This document shows, piece by piece, positions 2,873 to 61,978 of a stretch of DNA of 64,000 nucleotides. Within the stretch, counting starts at the first letter, position 1. Every line of letters begins with the position of its first letter. This DNA is from Mucispirillum schaedleri ASF457 (GTDB lineage Bacteria > Chrysiogenota > Deferribacteres > Deferribacterales > Mucispirillaceae). The translations under genes and the position numbers were made by a program. The notes below the pieces were generated by a model. It had not been told where the DNA came from. It did not search any database and saw nothing but the letters and a program-made list of their open reading frames with translations. The DNA is taken from NCBI RefSeq assembly GCF_000487995.2, contig NZ_CP097562.1:741001-805000 (forward strand). Direction: 5' to 3'.

Positions 2873-2908
2873 TATTTAGATTTAACCATACTGCAGCATA
2901 TATAATTT

Positions 2909-2938
2909 AGATACTTCGCCTTTTAGGCTCAGTATGAC
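2909..2938 (+). repeat. short copy of the dispersed intergenic repeat (module A)
   Basis: AGATACTTCGCC..AGGCTCAGTATGAC, the 30-bp core shared with copies near 13.8, 14.0-14.4, 22.3, 24.1, 49.9, 52.4 and 60.2 kb. It contains a small GCCT/AGGC hairpin. It sits between two convergent gene ends. Confidence 0.8.
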
Positions 2939-13745: not shown

Positions 13746-13760
13746 TATTTTTGAGTATCA

Positions 13761-13880
13761 GTCATTTTGAGCCTGATTTTTACAGGCGAAAAATCTATAA
13801 TTATATATTTCAGCAGTGCATAATATATTAAAAGTATCTTATTTTTAGATACTTCGCTTATAAATCAAGCTCAGTAAGAC
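13761..13880 (+). repeat. dispersed intergenic repeat, module B plus module A
   Basis: Begins GTCATTTTGAGCCTGA.. and runs through ..GGCGAAAAATCTA.., a CAGCAGTGCATAATATATT segment and ..AGATACTTCGC..AGCTCAGTAAGAC. The same order of blocks recurs near 49.8 and 52.3 kb, and reversed near 38.7 kb. A related but more diverged sequence (GTCTTCCTGAGTGAG..GCGAGCGAAGGAACT) follows at about 13974-14012. The whole spacer 13746-14562 contains these repeats and the tandem array, and no gene that I can support. Confidence 0.85.
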
Positions 13881-14033
13881 ATAAGTTGAAGTGTATGAGT
13901 GCTTTACTTAACTTTGTATATTTTTAATGAAGTAAAATTTTTATGCTGCATACATTTTTGAAATACTAAAATATGTCTTCCTGAGTGAGTATATGCGAGC
14001 GAAGGAACTATTAAGATTATAGATTACTATTAT

Positions 14034-14412
14034 AGATACTTCGCCTTTCAGGCTCAGGATGAGCCGTCTTTAGTGAGCGATAGGCGAACTTGTTTCGGCA
14101 GAGCGTGATTTAAAAAATACAGGGATGTATTTTTTAATAAAAGATAAATTTAGATACTTCGCCTTTCAGGCTCAGGATGAGCCATCTTTAGTGAGCGATA
14201 GGCGAACTTGTTTCGGCAGAGCGTGATTTAAAAAATACAGGGATGTATTTTTTAATAAAAGATAAATTTAGATACTTCGCCTTTCAGGCTCAGGATGAGC
14301 CGTTTTAGTGAGCGATAGGCGAACTTGTTTCGGCAGAGCGTGATTTAAAAAATACAGGGATGTATTTTTTAATAAAAGATAAATTTAGATACTTCGCCTT
14401 TCAGGCTCAGCA
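14034..14412 (+). repeat. tandem array of three ~118-bp repeat units
   Basis: Units start at 14034, 14152 and 14270, with a truncated fourth start at 14387; periods 118, 118 and 117 bp. Units are nearly identical (differences such as GCCGTC/GCCATC, and one base lost in unit 3). Each unit holds the module A core, a GGCTCA/TGAGCC hairpin, a CGAA/TTCG hairpin, and a 12-bp A+T hairpin TTAAAAAATACA-GGGA-TGTATTTTTTAA (first at 14110-14137). No open reading frame spans the units convincingly. Confidence 0.93.
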
Positions 14413-14562
14413 AAACATAGTAGTAGAATTTACCAAAAAATATATGTATAAATAAAAAATAATAGTTTTCAATCATAAAATACCCTATTTTCACTTTTGC
14501 ACTTATCAAGGAAAAGTAAAATTTTACTTGATTTTTCATATTAATATATTCATATTATATCT

Positions 14563-16293: not shown

Positions 16294-16374
16294 AAAGACG
16301 GCTCGTCCTAAGCCTGCTTCCATGTCATATATATAATTTAGATTTTTCGCCTGTAAAATCAGGCTCAAAATGAC
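16294..16374 (-). repeat. dispersed intergenic repeat, reversed copy
   Basis: Read on the minus strand: GTCATTTTGAGCCTGATTTT..GGCGAAAAATCTAAATTATAT, then a GGCTT-AGGAC-GAGCC hairpin (16300-16314) with one G-T wobble pair. It lies directly downstream of the HD-GYP gene. Confidence 0.8.
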
Positions 16375-22246: not shown

Positions 22247-22651
22247 GTCATACTGAGCCAAAGGCGAAGTATCTTAATAAATTTATATTAAAAAATTCAT
22301 CCATGAATTTTTTAAACCACACTCTGCCGAAACAAGTTCGGCTATCGCTCACTAAAGACGGCTCGTCCTGAGCCTGATTCCATGTCATATATAATTTAGA
22401 TTTTTCGCCTGCAAAATCAGGCTCAAAATGACTGTAATATGAGAACTCTAGGTCTTACTGAGCCACGAAGTATCTTAATAAATTTATATTAAAAAATTCA
22501 TCCATGAATTTTTTAAACCACACTCTGCCAAAACAAGTTCGGCTATCGCTCACTAAAGACGGCTCGTCCTGAGCCTGATTCCATGTCATATATAATTTAG
22601 ATTTTTCGCCTTTAAAAATCAGGCTCAAAATGACTGTAATATGAGAACTCT
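22247..22651 (-). repeat. two ~205-bp copies of the dispersed repeat in tandem, reversed
   Basis: Copies begin at 22247 and 22452 with GTC(A/T)TACTGAGCC. Each includes a perfect 13-bp-arm palindrome TTAAAAAATTCAT-CC-ATGAATTTTTTAA (first at 22288-22315), a GCCGAA/TTCGGC hairpin, the GGCTC/GAGCC hairpin, and module B (..TTTTTCGCC..AATCAGGCTCAAAATGAC). The second copy is cut off by the IS3-family element, and the array resumes on the other side at 24107. Confidence 0.9.
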
Positions 22652-22673
22652 GAACTTACCCAAAAATTTTGAA

Positions 22674-23474
22674 CTAAGCCACTAAATAAATTTCTTTTTC
22701 CTGTAAAGGTGTAAGTCCATTAGCTTTTATTCTGTAATTATTATAGAAATCAATATATTTTTCAAGTTCATATTTAAACTGTTCTATATTTTTGAATTTG
22801 TTAATATAAACCAATTCACATTTTAAAGTAGCAAAGAAACTTTCCATAACAGCATTATCATAGCAGTTGCCACGCCTTGACATACTCTGCTCTATATTAT
22901 TTTCCTTTAATAACTTTCTAAATTGATTAGCCTGATATAATATACCCTGGTCTGAATGTATCATTAACCCTGTTGTATCTTTTGTTTTATCTATTGCCTG
23001 TTTTAAATTATCTATTACCATTTCTTCATTATTATATTTGCTTACACTGTATGCTGTTATTTCTCTGTTATACAAATCCATTATTGCTGATAAATACACC
23101 TTTTCATTATTAATTTTTATCTCTGCCACATCTGTTACCCATTTTAAACATGGTTTCTCACTTGTAAAGGCTCTGTTTAATTTATTGCTGCATATATGAC
23201 TTACTCTGCCTTGTTTATACCTTTTCTTAACCCTGATTATTGATGAAATATTTAATTCCTTCATTAATTTTGCTACTGTCTTCCTGTCATAAGTATAACC
23301 CAGTTTCTCTAATGCCTTTGTTATTCTTGGATAGCCGTAAGTCTTGTTAGATTTTTCATATATTTCTAATATATATGCCTTGACTTCTGCATATTTATCT
23401 AATGCAGCAGGCTTTTTAACATTATAATAGTAAGTGCTTCTTTTCATATTACTCACAGACAACAGGATATCCAA
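22674..23474 (-). CDS. IS3-family transposase OrfB, copy 1
   Basis: 266 residues counted from a TTG codon. The frame is open further upstream (..EKAQIITALRLYYSLDILL..), as expected if it is made as a -1 frameshift fusion with OrfA. The HTH_21-type segment (KTYGYPRI..LEKLGYTYDRKTV) precedes an rve integrase core with DDE residues D115 (WVTDVAEI), D175 (IHSDQGILY) and E211 (AVMESFFATLK), giving the DD(35)E spacing of IS3 enzymes. Role: cut-and-rejoin transposition of the element. Differs from copy 2 only within residues 33-107. Confidence 0.95.
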   Translation of the reverse strand: MDILLSVSNMKRSTYYYNVKKPAALDKYAEVKAYILEIYEKSNKTYGYPRITKALEKLGYTYDRKTVAKLMKELNISSIIRVKKRYKQGRVSHICSNKLNRAFTSEKPCLKWVTDVAEIKINNEKVYLSAIMDLYNREITAYSVSKYNNEEMVIDNLKQAIDKTKDTTGLMIHSDQGILYQANQFRKLLKENNIEQSMSRRGNCYDNAVMESFFATLKCELVYINKFKNIEQFKYELEKYIDFYNNYRIKANGLTPLQEKEIYLVA

Positions 23475-23500
23475 ACTGTAATACAGCCTTAATGCAGTTA

Positions 23501-24058
23501 TTATTTGTGCTTTTTCTGTTGAACTCTCTGTTCCTTTGACTGCATTAAGGCTTCCAGCTTTTTTAAATATGCATTCTCCGCTGACTTGTAATAAAGCTCT
23601 TTTTCAAGCTCTGATATTCTCTCTTTTAATTGTCTTACTTCTTCACTATCATCTGATTTAGTGAGTTTAATATCAGTAGAGTTTGAGTGTTTACTCTTTT
23701 TACTGTTCGGGATATTCTTATCTGACATATTATCTCCAATAAACTTACTGCAAAACTTATTCCAGTCATATATTACTGATGCTGATGGTATATTAAAATA
23801 TAGTGCTGTCTGCTCATAACTTAAATTATTTGATGCCTTATAAGTTAACACATTTAATTTAAAATCTCTACTATATTCATTGCGGGTAAAGCTATGATGT
23901 AAACTTGATTCGCCTGAATGCTTATATCTGTTATAGATATTACATATTACTCCTTTATGAATTTTACAGCATCTTGATAATTCACTGGCACTCATTATTC
24001 CATTTTCTATGACTGTTACTAGATATTTCTTAAACTCATAGCTGTATTTTCTTGCCAT
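23501..24058 (-). CDS. IS3-family OrfA, copy 1
   Basis: 185 residues from the ATG at 24058, which has GGAG 5 bases upstream; a GTG two codons earlier overlaps that ribosome site. N-terminal helix-turn-helix (SASELSRCCKIHKGVICNIYNRYK), a second one (LSYEQTALYFNIPSASVIYDWNKF) and a C-terminal leucine-zipper-like coiled coil (EVRQLKERISELEKELYYKSAENAYLKKLE). DNA-binding partner of OrfB. The end contains an A5G run where ribosomes could slip -1 into orfB. The protein is identical to the copy 2 product. Confidence 0.93.
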   Translation of the reverse strand: MARKYSYEFKKYLVTVIENGIMSASELSRCCKIHKGVICNIYNRYKHSGESSLHHSFTRNEYSRDFKLNVLTYKASNNLSYEQTALYFNIPSASVIYDWNKFCSKFIGDNMSDKNIPNSKKSKHSNSTDIKLTKSDDSEEVRQLKERISELEKELYYKSAENAYLKKLEALMQSKEQRVQQKKHK

Positions 24059-24106
24059 ATACACTCCTTATATGGTTAGTACAACTTTTTCGGGTAAGTT
24101 CACTCT

Positions 24107-24182
24107 ATGTCTTACTGAGCCAAAGGCGAAGTATCTAAAAAATAAATAATTTAAATATATTATACATTACTGCAATATAAAT
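24107..24182 (-). repeat. dispersed intergenic repeat, continuation beyond the IS
   Basis: ATGTCTTACTGAGCC..GGCGAAGTATCT followed by the ATAATTTAAATATATTATACATTACTGCAATAT block. Same orientation as the array left of the IS, so it is probably the third unit of that array. The rest of 24183-24408 is A+T-rich without recognisable features. Confidence 0.8.
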
Positions 24183-29110: not shown

Positions 29111-29153
29111 GAACTTACCCAAAAAAGTTGGACGAGCCATATAAGGAGTGTAT

Positions 29154-29711
29154 ATGGCAAGAAAATACAGCTATGAGTTTAAGAAATATCTAGTAACAGT
29201 CATAGAAAATGGAATAATGAGTGCCAGTGAATTATCAAGATGCTGTAAAATTCATAAAGGAGTAATATGTAATATCTATAACAGATATAAGCATTCAGGC
29301 GAATCAAGTTTACATCATAGCTTTACCCGCAATGAATATAGTAGAGATTTTAAATTAAATGTGTTAACTTATAAGGCATCAAATAATTTAAGTTATGAGC
29401 AGACAGCACTATATTTTAATATACCATCAGCATCAGTAATATATGACTGGAATAAGTTTTGCAGTAAGTTTATTGGAGATAATATGTCAGATAAGAATAT
29501 CCCGAACAGTAAAAAGAGTAAACACTCAAACTCTACTGATATTAAACTCACTAAATCAGATGATAGTGAAGAAGTAAGACAATTAAAAGAGAGAATATCA
29601 GAGCTTGAAAAAGAGCTTTATTACAAGTCAGCGGAGAATGCATATTTAAAAAAGCTGGAAGCCTTAATGCAGTCAAAGGAACAGAGAGTTCAACAGAAAA
29701 AGCACAAATAA
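29154..29711 (+). CDS. IS3-family OrfA, copy 2
   Basis: 185 residues, identical in sequence to the copy 1 product: two helix-turn-helix segments and a C-terminal coiled coil. The ATG at 29154 follows AAGGAG. The run AAAAAG at 29697-29702 is read as AAA-AAG in the OrfA frame and lies in the overlap with the open -1 frame of orfB, so it is the probable slippage site for the OrfAB fusion (inferred). Confidence 0.93.
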   Translation: MARKYSYEFKKYLVTVIENGIMSASELSRCCKIHKGVICNIYNRYKHSGESSLHHSFTRNEYSRDFKLNVLTYKASNNLSYEQTALYFNIPSASVIYDWNKFCSKFIGDNMSDKNIPNSKKSKHSNSTDIKLTKSDDSEEVRQLKERISELEKELYYKSAENAYLKKLEALMQSKEQRVQQKKHK

Positions 29712-29737
29712 TAACTGCATTAAGGCTGTATTACAGT

Positions 29738-30538
29738 TTGGATATCCTGTTGTCTGTGAGTAATATGAAAAGAAGCACTTACTATTATAATGTTAAAAAG
29801 CCTGCTGCATTAGATAAATATGCAGAAGTCAAGACATCTATATTAGAAATATATGAAAAATCTAACAAGACTTATGGTTATCCAAGAATATCAAAGGTAT
29901 TAGAGAAACTGGGTTATACTTATGACAGGAAGACAGTGTATAAATTGATGAAAGAACTAAAAATTTCATCACTAATCAGGGTTAAGAAAAGGTATAAACA
30001 AGGCAGAGTAAGTCATATATGCAGCAATAAATTAAACAGAGCCTTTACAAGTGAGAGACCATGTTTAAAATGGGTAACAGATGTGGCAGAGATAAAAATT
30101 AATAATGAAAAGGTGTATTTATCAGCAATAATGGATTTGTATAACAGAGAAATAACAGCATACAGTGTAAGCAAATATAATAATGAAGAAATGGTAATAG
30201 ATAATTTAAAACAGGCAATAGATAAAACAAAAGATACAACAGGGTTAATGATACATTCAGACCAGGGTATATTATATCAGGCTAATCAATTTAGAAAGTT
30301 ATTAAAGGAAAATAATATAGAGCAGAGTATGTCAAGGCGTGGCAACTGCTATGATAATGCTGTTATGGAAAGTTTCTTTGCTACTTTAAAATGTGAATTG
30401 GTTTATATTAACAAATTCAAAAATATAGAACAGTTTAAATATGAACTTGAAAAATATATTGATTTCTATAATAATTACAGAATAAAAGCTAATGGACTTA
30501 CACCTTTACAGGAAAAAGAAATTTATTTAGTGGCTTAG
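29738..30538 (+). CDS. IS3-family transposase OrfB, copy 2
   Basis: 266 residues counted from a TTG, with an open frame upstream joining the OrfA region in the -1 frame. DDE catalytic residues D115, D175, E211 as in copy 1. Residues 1-32 and 108-266 are identical to copy 1. Between 33 and 107 there are eight substitutions: A33T, Y34S, T52S, A54V, A68Y, N75K, I79L and K107R (copy 1 to copy 2). Such clustering suggests recombination with a third, diverged copy. Confidence 0.95.
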   Translation: MDILLSVSNMKRSTYYYNVKKPAALDKYAEVKTSILEIYEKSNKTYGYPRISKVLEKLGYTYDRKTVYKLMKELKISSLIRVKKRYKQGRVSHICSNKLNRAFTSERPCLKWVTDVAEIKINNEKVYLSAIMDLYNREITAYSVSKYNNEEMVIDNLKQAIDKTKDTTGLMIHSDQGILYQANQFRKLLKENNIEQSMSRRGNCYDNAVMESFFATLKCELVYINKFKNIEQFKYELEKYIDFYNNYRIKANGLTPLQEKEIYLVA

Positions 30539-30618
30539 TTCAAAATTTTTGGGTAAGTTCAGTATCTAAAAAATAGATAATTTAAATATGTTATACAGAA
30601 CTTTAATATATATACTTT

Positions 30619-38700: not shown

Positions 38701-38824
38701 ACTCATACTGAAAGTGATTTATAAGCAAAGTATCTAAAAAATAAGATAATTTAAATATATCATACACTATTGCAATATATACAATTTAGATTTTTCACCT
38801 TGAAAAATCAGGCTCAAAATAACT
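38701..38824 (-). repeat. dispersed intergenic repeat, reversed copy between convergent genes
   Basis: On the minus strand: TTATTTTGAGCCTGATTTTTC..GGTGAAAAATCTAAATTGTATATATTG..ATGATATATTTAAATTATC..TTTTTTAGATACTTTGC..CAGTATGAG. It is more diverged than other copies. The next bases, on the minus strand GGAGTTAAAAAATTTTC, faintly resemble the ends of the IS3-family element. Confidence 0.75.
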
Positions 38825-47368: not shown

Positions 47369-47393
47369 TTTAGTATAAAATTAATATAGCTTA
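47369..47393 (+). repeat. left copy of a 25-bp direct repeat flanking the IS481-like element
   Basis: TTTAGTATAAAATTAATATA followed by GCTTA; identical to 48489-48513. Position next to the element end suggests a target duplication, although 25 bp is long for this family. Confidence 0.8.
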
Positions 47394-48488
47394 TCTTAAC
47401 TAACAGGACAAATGTTACACTTTTAGTAAAAAATAAATCTTAACTTAATATAAATCAAGCAATAATTTATTTTCAATAACAATCTCATATGGAGATTTAA
47501 AATTTAAGCATGTTTTAGCAGTATTATTATATCTATCTTCATGCTGTTTAAGAGCCTTAATTAATTCATCTTTGGAATAGAATTTATTATTTGCATATAA
47601 AATTTTTCCATCCTCTCTATGACTTCTTTCCACCTTTCCATTCTGCCAAGGTGAATAAGGTCTTATTCGTTTAATAGTATATCCTTTCTTTTCAGCTGTC
47701 TCTTCAAAATAGCTTTTCTTGTTTGTAACTTCCTTATCATTTACAAACTCATAGCCATTATCCACTTGAATTGTTTTTAGTGGAAAGCCAAATTTACTTT
47801 CCAGTTCGTCTAAAAACTTACCTGTTTCAAATGTGCTTTTTTCTTCTACTATTTCTAATACTCTCATTCTGCTGTATTCATCTATCGCTGTTATCTGATA
47901 ATATTTTTTACCATAGCTGGAAAACATTATACATTCCTGTGGAACATATTTTATATCTATCTGAACCTTGTCGCCTATATACTGACCTGTTATTGGTTCA
48001 TATCTTGTATAGCTCTTTTTTGACTTGTTTAATGACTTTAAGCCTTTCTTCCTTATCTGCATACACATACTGCCAAAACTACGATTATAACCAATTTCTA
48101 GAAGTCTGACATATACCTCCGCATTACCATACAAACCATGCTCGGCATATGTGTTAAATATTAAATCAAGCTCTTCTTTACTATGCTTATTTGGACTGGT
48201 TCTTGGTCTACGACTTTTAAAAGATAAACTCTGAACTGTTCCATCATATTTCTTTAAATGCCTGTATACAAACATACGGTTCACTTGATATTTGCGGGCT
48301 GCTTTCGTTGCTCCTTTTTTTAATGCATACTCACATAACCGTTGACGAAATCGCATTTCTTCTGTTATTATCACTTTATTCATTGTGATACCTCTTAGTT
48401 TAGTTTAGTTTTTTGCTTAATTTTATACTATATACTAAGAGGTATTTTTTTATACTTATTTTTGTAACATATGTCTCATAATCTTACA
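47394..48488 (-). mobile_element. IS481-like insertion sequence (about 1095 bp)
   Basis: Carries one transposase gene. End sequences pair as imperfect inverted repeats: GGACAAATGTTACA on the left and, reversed, GAGACATATGTTACA on the right, within a ~26-base alignable terminus. The ATGTCTC-containing end resembles those of other IS481-group elements. Flanked by a perfect 25-bp direct repeat (47369-47393 and 48489-48513). Exact ends are inferred from that repeat. Confidence 0.8.
47445..48383 (-). CDS. IS481-like DDE transposase
   Basis: 312 residues. N-terminal helix-turn-helix (ATKAARKYQVNRMFVYRHLKKYDG) and a second winged segment with the SFKSRRPRTSPNKHS linker typical of this family, followed by an rve integrase core with D143 (VQIDIKYVP), D208 (IQVDNGYEF) and E252 (GKVERSHRED). 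The gene looks intact. Its upstream side holds a GAGGTATC-type ribosome site (AGAGGT). Role: transposition of the 1.1-kb element. Confidence 0.95.
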   Translation of the reverse strand: MNKVIITEEMRFRQRLCEYALKKGATKAARKYQVNRMFVYRHLKKYDGTVQSLSFKSRRPRTSPNKHSKEELDLIFNTYAEHGLYGNAEVYVRLLEIGYNRSFGSMCMQIRKKGLKSLNKSKKSYTRYEPITGQYIGDKVQIDIKYVPQECIMFSSYGKKYYQITAIDEYSRMRVLEIVEEKSTFETGKFLDELESKFGFPLKTIQVDNGYEFVNDKEVTNKKSYFEETAEKKGYTIKRIRPYSPWQNGKVERSHREDGKILYANNKFYSKDELIKALKQHEDRYNNTAKTCLNFKSPYEIVIENKLLLDLY

Positions 48489-49647: not shown

Positions 49648-49729
49648 GCCGAAGTGGCGGAATGGTAGACGCAGCGGACTCAAAATCCGCCGATTTTTAA
49701 TCGTAGGGGTTCAAGTCCCCTCTTCGGTA
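49648..49729 (+). tRNA. tRNA-Leu (anticodon CAA)
   Basis: Class II cloverleaf of 82 bases. Acceptor arms GCCGAAG / CTTCGGT (one G-T at the end) with discriminator A; D-arm GGCGGAATGGTAGACGC; anticodon stem GCGGA / TCCGC with loop CTCAAAA, giving anticodon CAA for UUG codons; long variable arm CGATT..AATCG; T-arm GGGGTTCAAGTCCCC. The 3' CCA is not encoded. Confidence 0.97.
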
Positions 49730-49757: not shown

Positions 49758-50182
49758 GAACTTATTCAAAATTTTTTTCTCACATTCATTTTAAGCCTGA
49801 TTTTAAAGGTGAAAAATCTAAATTATATATATTAAAGCAGTGTATAACATATTTAAAACTATCTAACTTTTTAGATACTTCGCCTTGCAGGCTCAGTATG
49901 ACCTAGAGCTTTCACATTGCAGTAAGATACGGAAACAGGCTCAGGACGAGCTGTCTTTAGTAAGCGATAGACGAACTTATTTCGGCAGAGGGTGATTTAA
50001 AAAATTTATGGATGAATTTTTTAATACAAATTTATTAAGTCATTTTGAGCCTGACTTTAAGGCGAAAAATCTAAATTATATATATTAAAGCAGTGCATAG
50101 CATATTTAAAACTATATAGCTTTTTATTTACTCAGCCTTATCATTCTCAGTATAACTGATATGCAAAATTTTTAAGTAAGTC
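49758..50182 (+). repeat. composite dispersed-repeat block bounded by IS-end-like inverted sequences (possible MITE)
   Basis: Left border GAACTTATTCAAAATTTTTT matches the IS3-family end GAACTTACCCAAAAATTTTG at 16 of 20 positions. Right border CAAAATTTTTAAGTAAGTC (50164-50182) is, inverted, almost the IS end (two substitutions and one gap). Between them lie module B, module A, the GGCTC hairpin, the CGAA/TTCG hairpin, the A+T palindrome (49997-50024) and a second module B. No gene inside. No target duplication seen. This block accounts for most of the spacer 49730-50297. Confidence 0.65.
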
Positions 50183-52225: not shown

Positions 52226-52292
52226 ATATAATATAGAACAAATGTATTATATAAGATTTTTTAAAAAAAGAAAAGCAAAAAATAAAATAAGT

Positions 52293-52607
52293 GGGTTTAT
52301 CCTAAAAACTTTGTGCTGTAAGTTACTTTGAGCCTGTTTTAAAGGTTAAAAAATCTAAATTATATATATTACAGCAGTGCATAATATATTTAAAACTATC
52401 CAGCTTTTTAGATACTTCGCCTTACAGGTTCAGTATGACCTGCAGTTTTCACATTGCAGTAAGACACGGAAACAGGCTCAGGATGAGCCGTCTTTAGTAA
52501 GCGATAGCCGAACTTGTTTCGGCAGAGCGTGTTTTAAAAAATACAGGGATGTATTTTTTAATAAAAGATAAATTAAGATACTTCGCCTTACAGGCTCAGT
52601 ATGACTG
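52293..52607 (+). repeat. composite copy of the dispersed intergenic repeat
   Basis: Order: a weak IS-end-like start (GGGTTTATCCTAAAAACTTTG), module B (TTACTTTGAGCCTG..AAATCTAAATTATAT), the ACAGCAGTGCATAATATATT block, module A, a TTTTCACATTGCAGTAAGACACGG link, GGCTCAGGATGAGCC hairpin, GCCGAA/TTCGGC hairpin, the TTAAAAAATACA/TGTATTTTTTAA hairpin, and a final module A ending in CAGTATGAC. It fills most of the spacer 52226-52742. Confidence 0.88.
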
Positions 52608-52732
52608 AATTTACTTTTTTCTAATACTATTACTAAATATTTTGATAATAATAACTATCATTTCTTTCCATATAAGTTTATTATATGGATTAGTTTAAGT
52701 TTTTTTGTAAGAGCAGTATAAAAAACATAAAA

Positions 52733-59887: not shown

Positions 59888-60204
59888 GGATGTATTTTTT
59901 AATAAAGGATAAATTTATTCACTTCGCCTTATAACTCTCATTATGACATAATTGTAGTAGTTTTATTATTCAGAGCTGCTGTCACACAATGTCTATTATG
60001 AGGATAGCGAAGAATCTTGTATCTATAATGAGGTTAAAACTGCTAACTTTTTAGGATACTGTATAATATAAGTATAAGTATGAATTTAGATATTGCCTAA
60101 ACAGTTAATAATTTATAGAATGTTTAAATTGCAATAATTCTAAATACTATATTGTGGGTTGCAGTTTTTACAATACAGATACTTCGCCTTATGGCTCAGT
60201 ATGA
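59888..60204 (+). repeat. 317-bp segment duplicated at 61668-61978
   Basis: Starts in the hairpin half GGATGTATTTTTTAATAAAGG and runs through a TATTATTCAGAGCTGCTG block, a (T/C)TATT(A/C)TGAG..ATAGCGAAGAATCTT block, and a long GATACTGTATAATATAAGTATAA..TTGTGGGTTGCAGTTTTTACAATACAGATACTT part. The downstream copy is similar over its whole length with scattered substitutions and short gaps. No open reading frame of note. Confidence 0.85.
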
Positions 60205-60214
60205 TATGAATGCA

Positions 60215-60434
60215 GGCTTAGGACAAGCCGTCTGAAAATGAGCGATAGCTGAACTTGTTTTGGTAGAGCGTGATTTTAAAAAACATGGAGAGCATATTTT
60301 ACTACACTGCACTCCGAGTATGTAAAACGACTTGCCATTAATATAGGCAAGACTCTGTTTTTGCAGCACAAGGACTTTCCGAGCAAGCAGCGATGGAATA
60401 AAAAGTCCGCAGCTGGACAGTATTTGAAAATAAA
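60215..60434 (+). repeat. dispersed repeat unit interrupted by a structured insert
   Basis: GGCTT-AGGAC-AAGCC hairpin (60215-60229), AGCGATAGCTGAACTTGTTTTGGTAGAGCGTGA, then the A+T hairpin is interrupted after AAAAAACATGGAG by ~120 bases of higher G+C, before the unit resumes near AAATAAAGGGTAAATTAAGATACTTC. The insert is described separately. Confidence 0.75.
60296..60420 (+). other. G+C-richer insert with several hairpins, possible small RNA
   Basis: CTTGCC / GGCAAG (60331-60336, 60346-60351), GGACTTT / AAAGTCC (60372-60378, 60402-60408) and GTCC-GCAGCT-GGAC (60405-60418), the last competing with the second. No promoter or terminator is clear and no open reading frame was found, so calling it an RNA is speculative. 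Confidence 0.35.
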
Positions 60435-60442
60435 GGGTAAAT

Positions 60443-60562
60443 TAAGATACTTCACTATATTTCAAGACCAGTATTAACATACAGTTTTCACACGATAACT
60501 CATTTTGAGTCTGATTTTATAGGCGAAAAATCTAAATTATATATATTACAGTAGTATATAAA
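60443..60562 (+). repeat. dispersed repeat fragment (module A remnant plus module B)
   Basis: AAGATACTTCACTATATTTC.. followed by CTCATTTTGAGTCTGATTTTATAGGCGAAAAATCTAAATTATATATATTACAGTAG. From 60563 to 60822 I see only A+T-rich sequence. Confidence 0.75.
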
Positions 60563-60822
60563 TCAAAAAATGCAGCAATCTTAAAACAGTATTGACAATT
60601 ATTGCAGCTTATACTAACTAAATTATTCGCATTCGCTCATAATGACAGGTGGCAGCATATCTTTCTTAAAAAGAGCAAAGCGGAGCAAAAGAAATATATA
60701 TCAAAATAAGATAATGTTTAATAAATAAGCAAAATAAATAGATTATTCCATTTGCTTATAATAAATATCCATCCTTTTAAACATTAAGAAACATATTAAA
60801 AATAATAAAATATAAAAACAGT

Positions 60823-61476: not shown

Positions 61477-61978
61477 GACTTACCCCAGAAATTTTATATA
61501 TCAGTCATTTTGAGCCTGATTTTAAAGGTGAAAAAATCTAAATTATATAGTTTTAGATACTTCGCCTTATTACTCTCAGTATGACATGTAAGCAGGCTCT
61601 GGACGAGCCGTCTGAAAGTGAGCGATAACCGAACTTATTTCGGCAGAGCGTGATTTAAAAAATACAAGGATGTATTTTTTAATAAAGGATAAATTTATTT
61701 ACTTCTCCTTATTACTATCAGTATGACAATTGTAGCAGTTTTATTATTCAGAGCTGCTGCCACACAATGCCTATTCTGAGCATAGCGAAGAATCTTATAT
61801 TTATAATGAAATTAAAACTACAAACTTTTTAAGATACTGTATAATATAAGTATAAATTTAGATATTGCCTAAAAGTTAATAATTTATAGAATATTTAAAT
61901 TGAAATAATTCTAAATACTATATTGTGGGTTGCAGTTTTTACAATACAGATACTTTGTCTTATCACTATCAGTATAAC
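61477..61978 (+). repeat. composite dispersed repeat beginning with an IS-end-like sequence
   Basis: GACTTACCCCAGAAATTTT (61477-61495) resembles the IS3-family end GAACTTACCCAAAAATTTT. Module B follows at the same distance as in the 49.8-kb block, then module A, GGCTC-TGGAC-GAGCC, CCGAA/TTCGG, the TACA/TGTA hairpin, and from 61668 the segment duplicated from 59888-60204. It fills most of the spacer 61334-62275. Confidence 0.82.

Follow-up and report, generated by a model that had tools for sequence, protein, structure and literature searches.

CGTC/TGTC-type hairpin repeats of Mucispirillum schaedleri ASF457 and the small GIY-YIG nuclease genes that such hairpins bracket

Overview

The intergenic repeats of Mucispirillum schaedleri ASF457 are, as judged from their sequence, a new family of the same kind as the known CGTC/TGTC-tagged REP superfamily. 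We propose, with a probability of roughly two in three, that they are non-autonomous REPs of the CGTC/TGTC type whose autonomous relatives carry a GIY-YIG nuclease that would cut the hairpins, with repair spreading them. The hairpin displays compensatory changes, occurs as a dimer unit, lies between genes at their 3' ends, and has been gained or lost relative to related species; GIY-YIG genes are bracketed by such hairpins and co-occur with them in relatives. What is new here, besides another REP family of a known kind, is this association with GIY-YIG genes, which we did not find in the literature searched.

Repeat family and hairpin structure

The window analyzed here comprises 64,000 nucleotides (positions 741,001–805,000) of the single-contig genome of 2,347,083 bp. 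A preliminary description of it recognized two recurring modules, A and B. The A core matches 20 times compared with 0.18 by chance, the B core 9 times compared with 0, and the B tail 10 times compared with 0.01; however, A and B are a single hairpin, A being its reverse complement and carrying another stem allele (TAC/GTA in place of TTT/AAA). By a scored scan, the window has 24 hairpin copies and a 464-kb sample of this chromosome has 113, as opposed to one when that DNA is reversed. Some stretches of the sample were selected for containing copies; 84% of it is coding, with genes called by a simple hexamer model. A strict hairpin pattern identified 156 copies genome-wide (2.35 Mb) and none in controls, so the family is real and extends beyond the window. 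These 156 copies, along with a density of 0.24 per kb in the 464-kb sample, picked partly around known copies, bear out the earlier guess of hundreds of copies, and the REP/BIME-like character then suggested is supported. An Rfam scan returned nothing above the gathering threshold except one tRNA. Few strict matches fall within the chromosome's first 260 kb, with copies dense elsewhere, and no hairpins were detected in the sampled stretches G000:C1:20001-40000 and 130001-150000 (L031, L032).

Read from the tag, both modules have the consensus GTCAT-NN-TGAGCC-loop-GGCGAA-N'N'-ATCT. The stem pairs run A-T, T-A, N-N', N-N', T-A, then G·A and A·G, then G-C, C-G and C-G, giving 5 bp, a tandem G·A in mid-stem and 3 bp, with loops of 3–11 nt. 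There are two main stem alleles, TTT/AAA (B) and TAC/GTA (A, on the opposite strand), and the minor alleles TTC/GAA, TTA/TAA, TCC/GGA and TGC/GCA. The NN and N'N' positions co-vary; in the window alignment 95.4% of cells are paired, and two-sided changes number 22 as against 8.2 in shuffles. The outer A-T pair is present in 97 of the 113 copies and the second pair, T-A, in every one; the tag GTC is kept in 86 of them, preceded in this genome by A, T or G but never by C, and the 3' tail is mostly CTA or CTT.

Neighboring copies are arranged head to head (27 cases), tail to tail (20) or head to tail (13). All 27 head-to-head pairs are heterodimers, with no homodimer among them. The mobile unit is this head-to-head heterodimer of ~120 bp, in which two hairpins surround a conserved AT-rich spacer. 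Tandem arrays with periods of ~118 bp and ~200 bp are also present, and a third, ~90-bp module, C, recurs within composite units (for example, 14064–14150, 22277–22396 and 52480–52574). It contains three short inverted repeats, one of which, AAAAAATACA/TGTATTTTTT, has compensating variants. C-module sequence (window positions 52480–52574, 49935–50039 and 22277–22396) matches DNA in all ten congeners, even in G009, which has no strict hairpin copies.

Copies in the window

The window opens with a solo TAC/GTA hairpin (2908–2938, minus strand) between convergent gene ends. A head-to-head heterodimer at 13761–13880 consists of a TTT/AAA hairpin (13761–13796, plus strand), a 46-nt conserved spacer and a TAC/GTA hairpin (13847–13880, minus strand). 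Beyond it, a TCC/GGA hairpin (13975–14009, plus strand) and a hairpin at 14034–14063 (minus strand) make up a head-to-head pair (13975–14063), the second member of which also belongs to a minus-strand tandem array with a period of ~118 bp (14034–14417). This array has four hairpins, starting at 14034, 14152, 14270 and 14387; between successive hairpins lies the ~90-bp C module with its AAAAAATACA/TGTATTTTTT arms. A TTT/AAA hairpin at 16340–16374 (minus strand) adjoins a C-module remnant. Two tandem composite units of ~200 bp (22247–22432 and 22452–22634, together 22247–22634) each contain a TAC/GTA hairpin, a C module and a TTT/AAA hairpin, the hairpins being head to head.

The spacer holding these units also contains an IS3-family element (22642–24108, minus strand) flanked by 5-bp direct repeats, ACTCT; it is target context and not a member of the family, and a TAC/GTA hairpin (24109–24136, plus strand) lies beyond it. 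A second IS3-family copy (29118–30561) is embedded in REP DNA. Of the repeat copies previously placed near 29.1 and 30.6 kb, dimer-spacer remnants are present on both sides of this element but a complete hairpin is not. An IS481-like element at 47392–48488 has about 28 copies in the genome, most of them nearly identical.

Further along, a head-to-head dimer between convergent genes (38702–38823) combines a degenerate TAC/GTA hairpin (38702–38735) with a TTT/AAA hairpin (38788–38823, minus strand), and a head-to-head heterodimer (49785–49902) is located downstream of a tRNA gene (49648–49729). A TTT/AAA hairpin with dimer spacer occupies 50039–50072 (plus strand). The segment 52323–52605 contains a degenerate TTT/AAA hairpin, a TAC/GTA hairpin (52410–52439), a C module and another TAC/GTA hairpin (52576–52605). 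Two mosaics complete the set. The one at 60177–60646 includes C-module DNA and hairpins at 60177–60205 (minus strand), 60499–60533 (plus strand) and 60620–60646 (minus strand, TTA/TAA). The other, between convergent genes at 61504–61796, includes a degenerate TTT-type hairpin (61504–61541), a TAC/GTA hairpin (61555–61585, minus strand), a C module and a TTC/GAA hairpin (61770–61796, plus strand).

Placement at gene ends

As the preliminary description had stated, the copies lie outside genes and favor gene 3' ends, particularly convergent ones: none of the 113 copies in the 464-kb sample falls in a predicted gene, and 64 are in convergent, 40 in codirectional and 9 in divergent spacers. Random placement, which that description had considered as evidence against its own view, was not seen. 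Counted by spacer in the same sample, copies occupy 28 of the 48 convergent spacers, 19 of the 224 codirectional ones and 4 of the 52 divergent ones.

This preference for convergent spacers, like the compensatory changes that preserve the stems, would be expected of functional 3'-end elements, terminators or stabilizers of mRNA 3' ends, under selection at convergent gene ends. We consider that highly improbable. No T-run follows the stem, both orientations are equally frequent (19 copies in the same orientation as the upstream gene and 21 in the opposite one, that is, without bias), two congeners (G009 and G001) have at most one strict copy (0–1), and purifying selection against other insertions accounts for the placement. 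In addition, at the one orthologous spacer compared, the block 52291–52717 is absent from four congeners, which have ~30 bp there instead and retain a terminator-like GGCTGC..GCAGCC hairpin beside the downstream gene. Since the block is missing where the terminator is kept, the role in termination or RNA processing envisaged earlier finds no support as the reason for its existence. The missing block also indicates that insertions or losses have occurred and that these are not ancestral 3' ends.

Relation to known repeats and distribution

Several defining features of the repeats match those of the CGTC/TGTC-tagged REP superfamily, so the earlier statement that no named family fits them no longer holds. 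This superfamily, which includes Neisseria dRS3 and Rickettsia RPE-4/RPE-6, is characterized by an unpaired CGTC tag at one end, often TGTC or CCTC, a stem of 8–9 bp, a loop of 4–5 nt and a short 3' tail, mostly CCA; it was reported to "apparently lack" a dedicated transposase, no RAYT/IS200 gene being flanked by CGTC units (Di Nocera, De Gregorio, Rocco 2013, PMC3733652). The M. schaedleri repeats resemble it in a tag of the form [NT]GTC at one end. They share with it a stem starting with A-T/T-A, a short tail left unpaired, a head-to-head dimer arrangement in which heterodimers are frequent, location in spacers downstream of genes, and the lack of a linked RAYT. In contrast to that superfamily, their stem is broken by a conserved tandem G-A (TGA/GAA), the loop is longer and more variable, so that stem and loop fall outside the 8–9 bp and 4–5 nt limits, the tail is CTA and not CCA, and the first tag base is A, T or G, never C. 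The differences in tandem G·A, loop and tail are the reason for regarding the repeats as a new family. The five phyla listed for the superfamily do not include Deferribacterota (PMC3733652).

The GTAG REPs and REPINs associated with RAYT (Y1/HUH) proteins are likewise short tagged palindromes in paired units, present in high copy and mostly at gene ends, and movement by IS200/RAYT-type Y1 transposases, as thought for GTAG REPs, might be invoked for the present repeats because they fall into the same broad class (short palindromes with a tag, dimers, placement at 3' ends); congeners do in fact encode a Y1 protein of 152 aa. We give this idea very little credence. The tag here is GTC, the associated gene is GIY-YIG and not HUH, and no Y1 transposase (Y1_Tnp, PF01797) is found in this genome. 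In relatives, the DNA flanking 30 Y1 loci contains no strict hairpin; in hairpin-bearing genomes, 92 kb of DNA surrounding Y1 loci contains 5 hairpins, none of which closely brackets the gene, and no Y1 gene flanked by CGTC units was found in 2013 either (PMC3733652). RAYT/IS200 was accordingly rejected as mobilizer. In a check for elements of MITE type, the GIY-YIG gene was the only gene found with similar ends, and no target duplication was seen in the dimer flanks listed.

A literature search with the consensus sequences returned no paper on bacterial repeats and a single paper on Cycas mitochondria. The Bpu elements of Cycas and Ginkgo mitochondria have an identical core, CCTGAGCGTAGCGAAGG, the likeness having been compared for the core only, and in a Ginkgo variant C-G replaces the T-A pair next to the tandem G-A, a compensatory change. 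They differ in having AAGG terminal direct repeats, a 36-bp unit and no GTC tag (PMC8297867).

Strict copies number 156, 40, 23, 17 and 13 among the ten congeners, falling to 0 in others. The strict pattern is patchy in the phylum: it is absent from other genera of the family, and one member of another genus has 74 strict copies, its sister species 0 or 1. A scan of GTDB species genomes left the four central stem bases free, counts being those of the matches listed. Among these matches are Bacteroidota, Chloroflexota, Clostridia, Cyanobacteria, Omnitrophota, Acidobacteria, Patescibacteria, Campylobacterota and others. The free stem positions are fully complementary in 103 of 110 hairpins read among the matches listed (chance 1/16), and across phyla the base before GTCA is T in 77 and C in 28 of these 110. 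Spread by host recombination, slippage and gene conversion alone, with no dedicated enzyme, would suit the tandem arrays of ~118-bp and ~200-bp period and the similar spacers of dispersed dimers, yet it too is very hard to credit: single dimers dispersed in unrelated spacers, together with presence or absence of a block at an orthologous site, require insertion, and the patchy pan-bacterial distribution suggests horizontal spread.

Small GIY-YIG genes between hairpins

Clustering of ORFs near hairpins yielded one suggestive family, small GIY-YIG nucleases. By Pfam searches, most genomes that bear hairpins have small GIY-YIG genes. This genome has exactly one (L250; 1,774,261–1,774,605; 114 aa), bracketed by TGTCTATTCTGAGCAAAGCGAAGAATCTGA and an inverted partner (inverted-repeat score 30.5). 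Only 1 of 373 other genes of this REP-rich genome has hairpins on both sides. The alleles flanking the GIY-YIG gene are TTC/GAA and TTA/TAA and not the abundant ones. The encoded protein has a GIY-YIG domain (1.5e-18); it is one of 78 proteins among which the catalytic-type positions (Y, Y, G, R, H, E, E) are conserved. In PHROGs and NCBIfam it gave no more than weak homing-endonuclease matches, and in a PDB sequence search no match. The modeled relative L146 (pLDDT 81) resembles UPF0213 and Slx1 weakly (E 1e-3 to 0.1), BH0048 (1zg2) and Slx1 being closest. Slx1 is a branched-DNA nuclease that acts with Slx4. No hairpin or REP association of UPF0213/Slx1-like small GIY-YIG proteins was found in the literature searched.

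Small GIY-YIG genes are associated with bracketing hairpins. Strict hairpins flank 30–31 of 78 such genes, as opposed to 1–2 of 39 uvrC genes. A motif-blind inverted-repeat test, which compared the upstream 200 bp with the reverse complement of the downstream 200 bp, gave a score of at least 15 for 41 of 76 small GIY-YIG genes, compared with none of 375 shuffles, none of the uvrC controls (19 loci only) and 39 of 824 ordinary genes (p 7e-28 against small GIY-YIG); 49 of the 76 reach at least 13, and about a third of small GIY-YIG genes lack a flanking inverted repeat. The GIY-YIG nucleases encoded between two such hairpins are ~90–115 aa long and of the UPF0213/Slx1-like group. In compact cases a hairpin is followed by ~25 bp, an ORF of ~92 codons, 1–20 bp and an inverted hairpin, with the tags facing outward.

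Among 40 relatives, small GIY-YIG genes are present in all five genomes with at least 20 hairpins and in 4 of the 35 others (Fisher p 1.9e-4, a value that ignores phylogeny; the genomes are not phylogenetically independent). The correlation is weak in 148 Bacteroidota (Spearman rho 0.29, p 3.5e-4), some of which are rich in hairpins and lack a small GIY-YIG gene, namely G247 (114 hairpins), G137 (65) and G179 (26). A Helicobacter MAG has only a uvrC-sized GIY-YIG match. These exceptions, the weak correlation, the flanking alleles of this genome's own gene and the third of genes lacking flanking repeats speak against a mobilizing role of the nuclease.

A plasmid search with one GIY-YIG protein found relatives in Rhizobium, Sinorhizobium, Sphingobium, Novosphingobium, Azospirillum, Shinella and Neisseria, many of which are groups where CGTC REPs were described. 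Inverted repeats bracket the GIY-YIG gene at 12 of 16 loci of such organisms and are mostly plainly of the CGTC type, as in A. lipoferum (CGTCATCCCCGCGAAGGCGGGGATCC) and N. gonorrhoeae (CGTCATTCCCGC..GCGGGAATCC, dRS3 type). CGTC families already described from Neisseria, Azospirillum, Sinorhizobium and Sphingobium bracket GIY-YIG genes too. In Azospirillum lipoferum 4B (L361, NC_016623.1 254818–256484), a GIY-YIG gene and three identical CGTC REPs split sufB from sufC; A. ramasamyi, A. oryzae and strain B510 keep both genes with no insertion between them and with flanks 95–97% identical. At a Sphingobium site, some strains have REP–GIY-YIG–REP, two have a solo palindrome (REP) and one is empty.

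The main rival to mobilization by GIY-YIG enzymes is that the gene is a homing-type parasite landing in REP hairpins as safe sites while something else spreads the REPs, which we regard as unlikely. REPs are known insertion targets of other mobile elements (PMC1525189), and tandem GIY-YIG arrays are nested in tRNA 3' ends as well. The solo REP of two Sphingobium strains, set beside REP–GIY-YIG–REP in others, is what insertion into a REP would produce; these Sphingobium alleles are compatible with both explanations. A homing parasite would, however, leave the spread of CGTC REPs unexplained, as no other gene was found, Y1 being absent here and unlinked elsewhere. It also does not account for the regularity of the compact loci, with hairpin, ~25 bp, ORF, ~5–15 bp and inverted hairpin and tags outward, or for the high copy number that accompanies the gene in relatives.

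Proposed mode of spread

The small GIY-YIG nuclease is the best candidate for the missing enzyme that moves CGTC-type hairpins. In the mechanism we propose, the nuclease would act on single-stranded or extruded DNA, where it would recognize the folded hairpin by its tag, A-T/T-A base and tandem sheared G-A and would make its cut at the hairpin. GIY-YIG enzymes cleave DNA but do not join it, which makes it necessary to assume a host repair step; repair would then place copies of the dimer, or of the form with the gene, at new or homologous sites. Cutting of hairpins by the nuclease could in this manner cause their spread in trans. Copies would survive in spacers only, mostly at gene 3' ends, because selection removes other insertions. 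It is fairly probable, moreover, that the CGTC-type REPs of many phyla, perhaps together with plant Bpu elements, derive from a minimal element of ~350–450 bp, a GIY-YIG gene between two hairpin termini, moving by hairpin recognition and host repair with no transposase.

CGTC REPs have since 2013 been a large and widespread class of bacterial repeats without a mobility gene, and a nuclease gene consistently bracketed by them makes the question of the missing gene testable. If the proposal is correct, these would be a new type of mobile element using a GIY-YIG endonuclease in place of a transposase, and it would suggest a role for many small genes annotated as "GIY-YIG nuclease family protein". 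We found no paper linking GIY-YIG to REPs or palindromes in a search largely of openly accessible journal papers; RepRanger 2025 and a GIY-YIG phylogenomics paper do not mention such a link.

DNA comparison of the GIY-YIG copies revealed no recent dispersed duplicates. The GIY-YIG gene occupies the same locus in G000 and G004, so no movement is visible since their split. Tandem arrays in which the small GIY-YIG genes are identical or nearly so were observed at L340 (G258:C1), L343 (G202:C2) and L341 (G193:C97), with repeat units (317, 345 and ~377 bp) that include the 3' part of the adjacent tRNA gene and a short palindrome.
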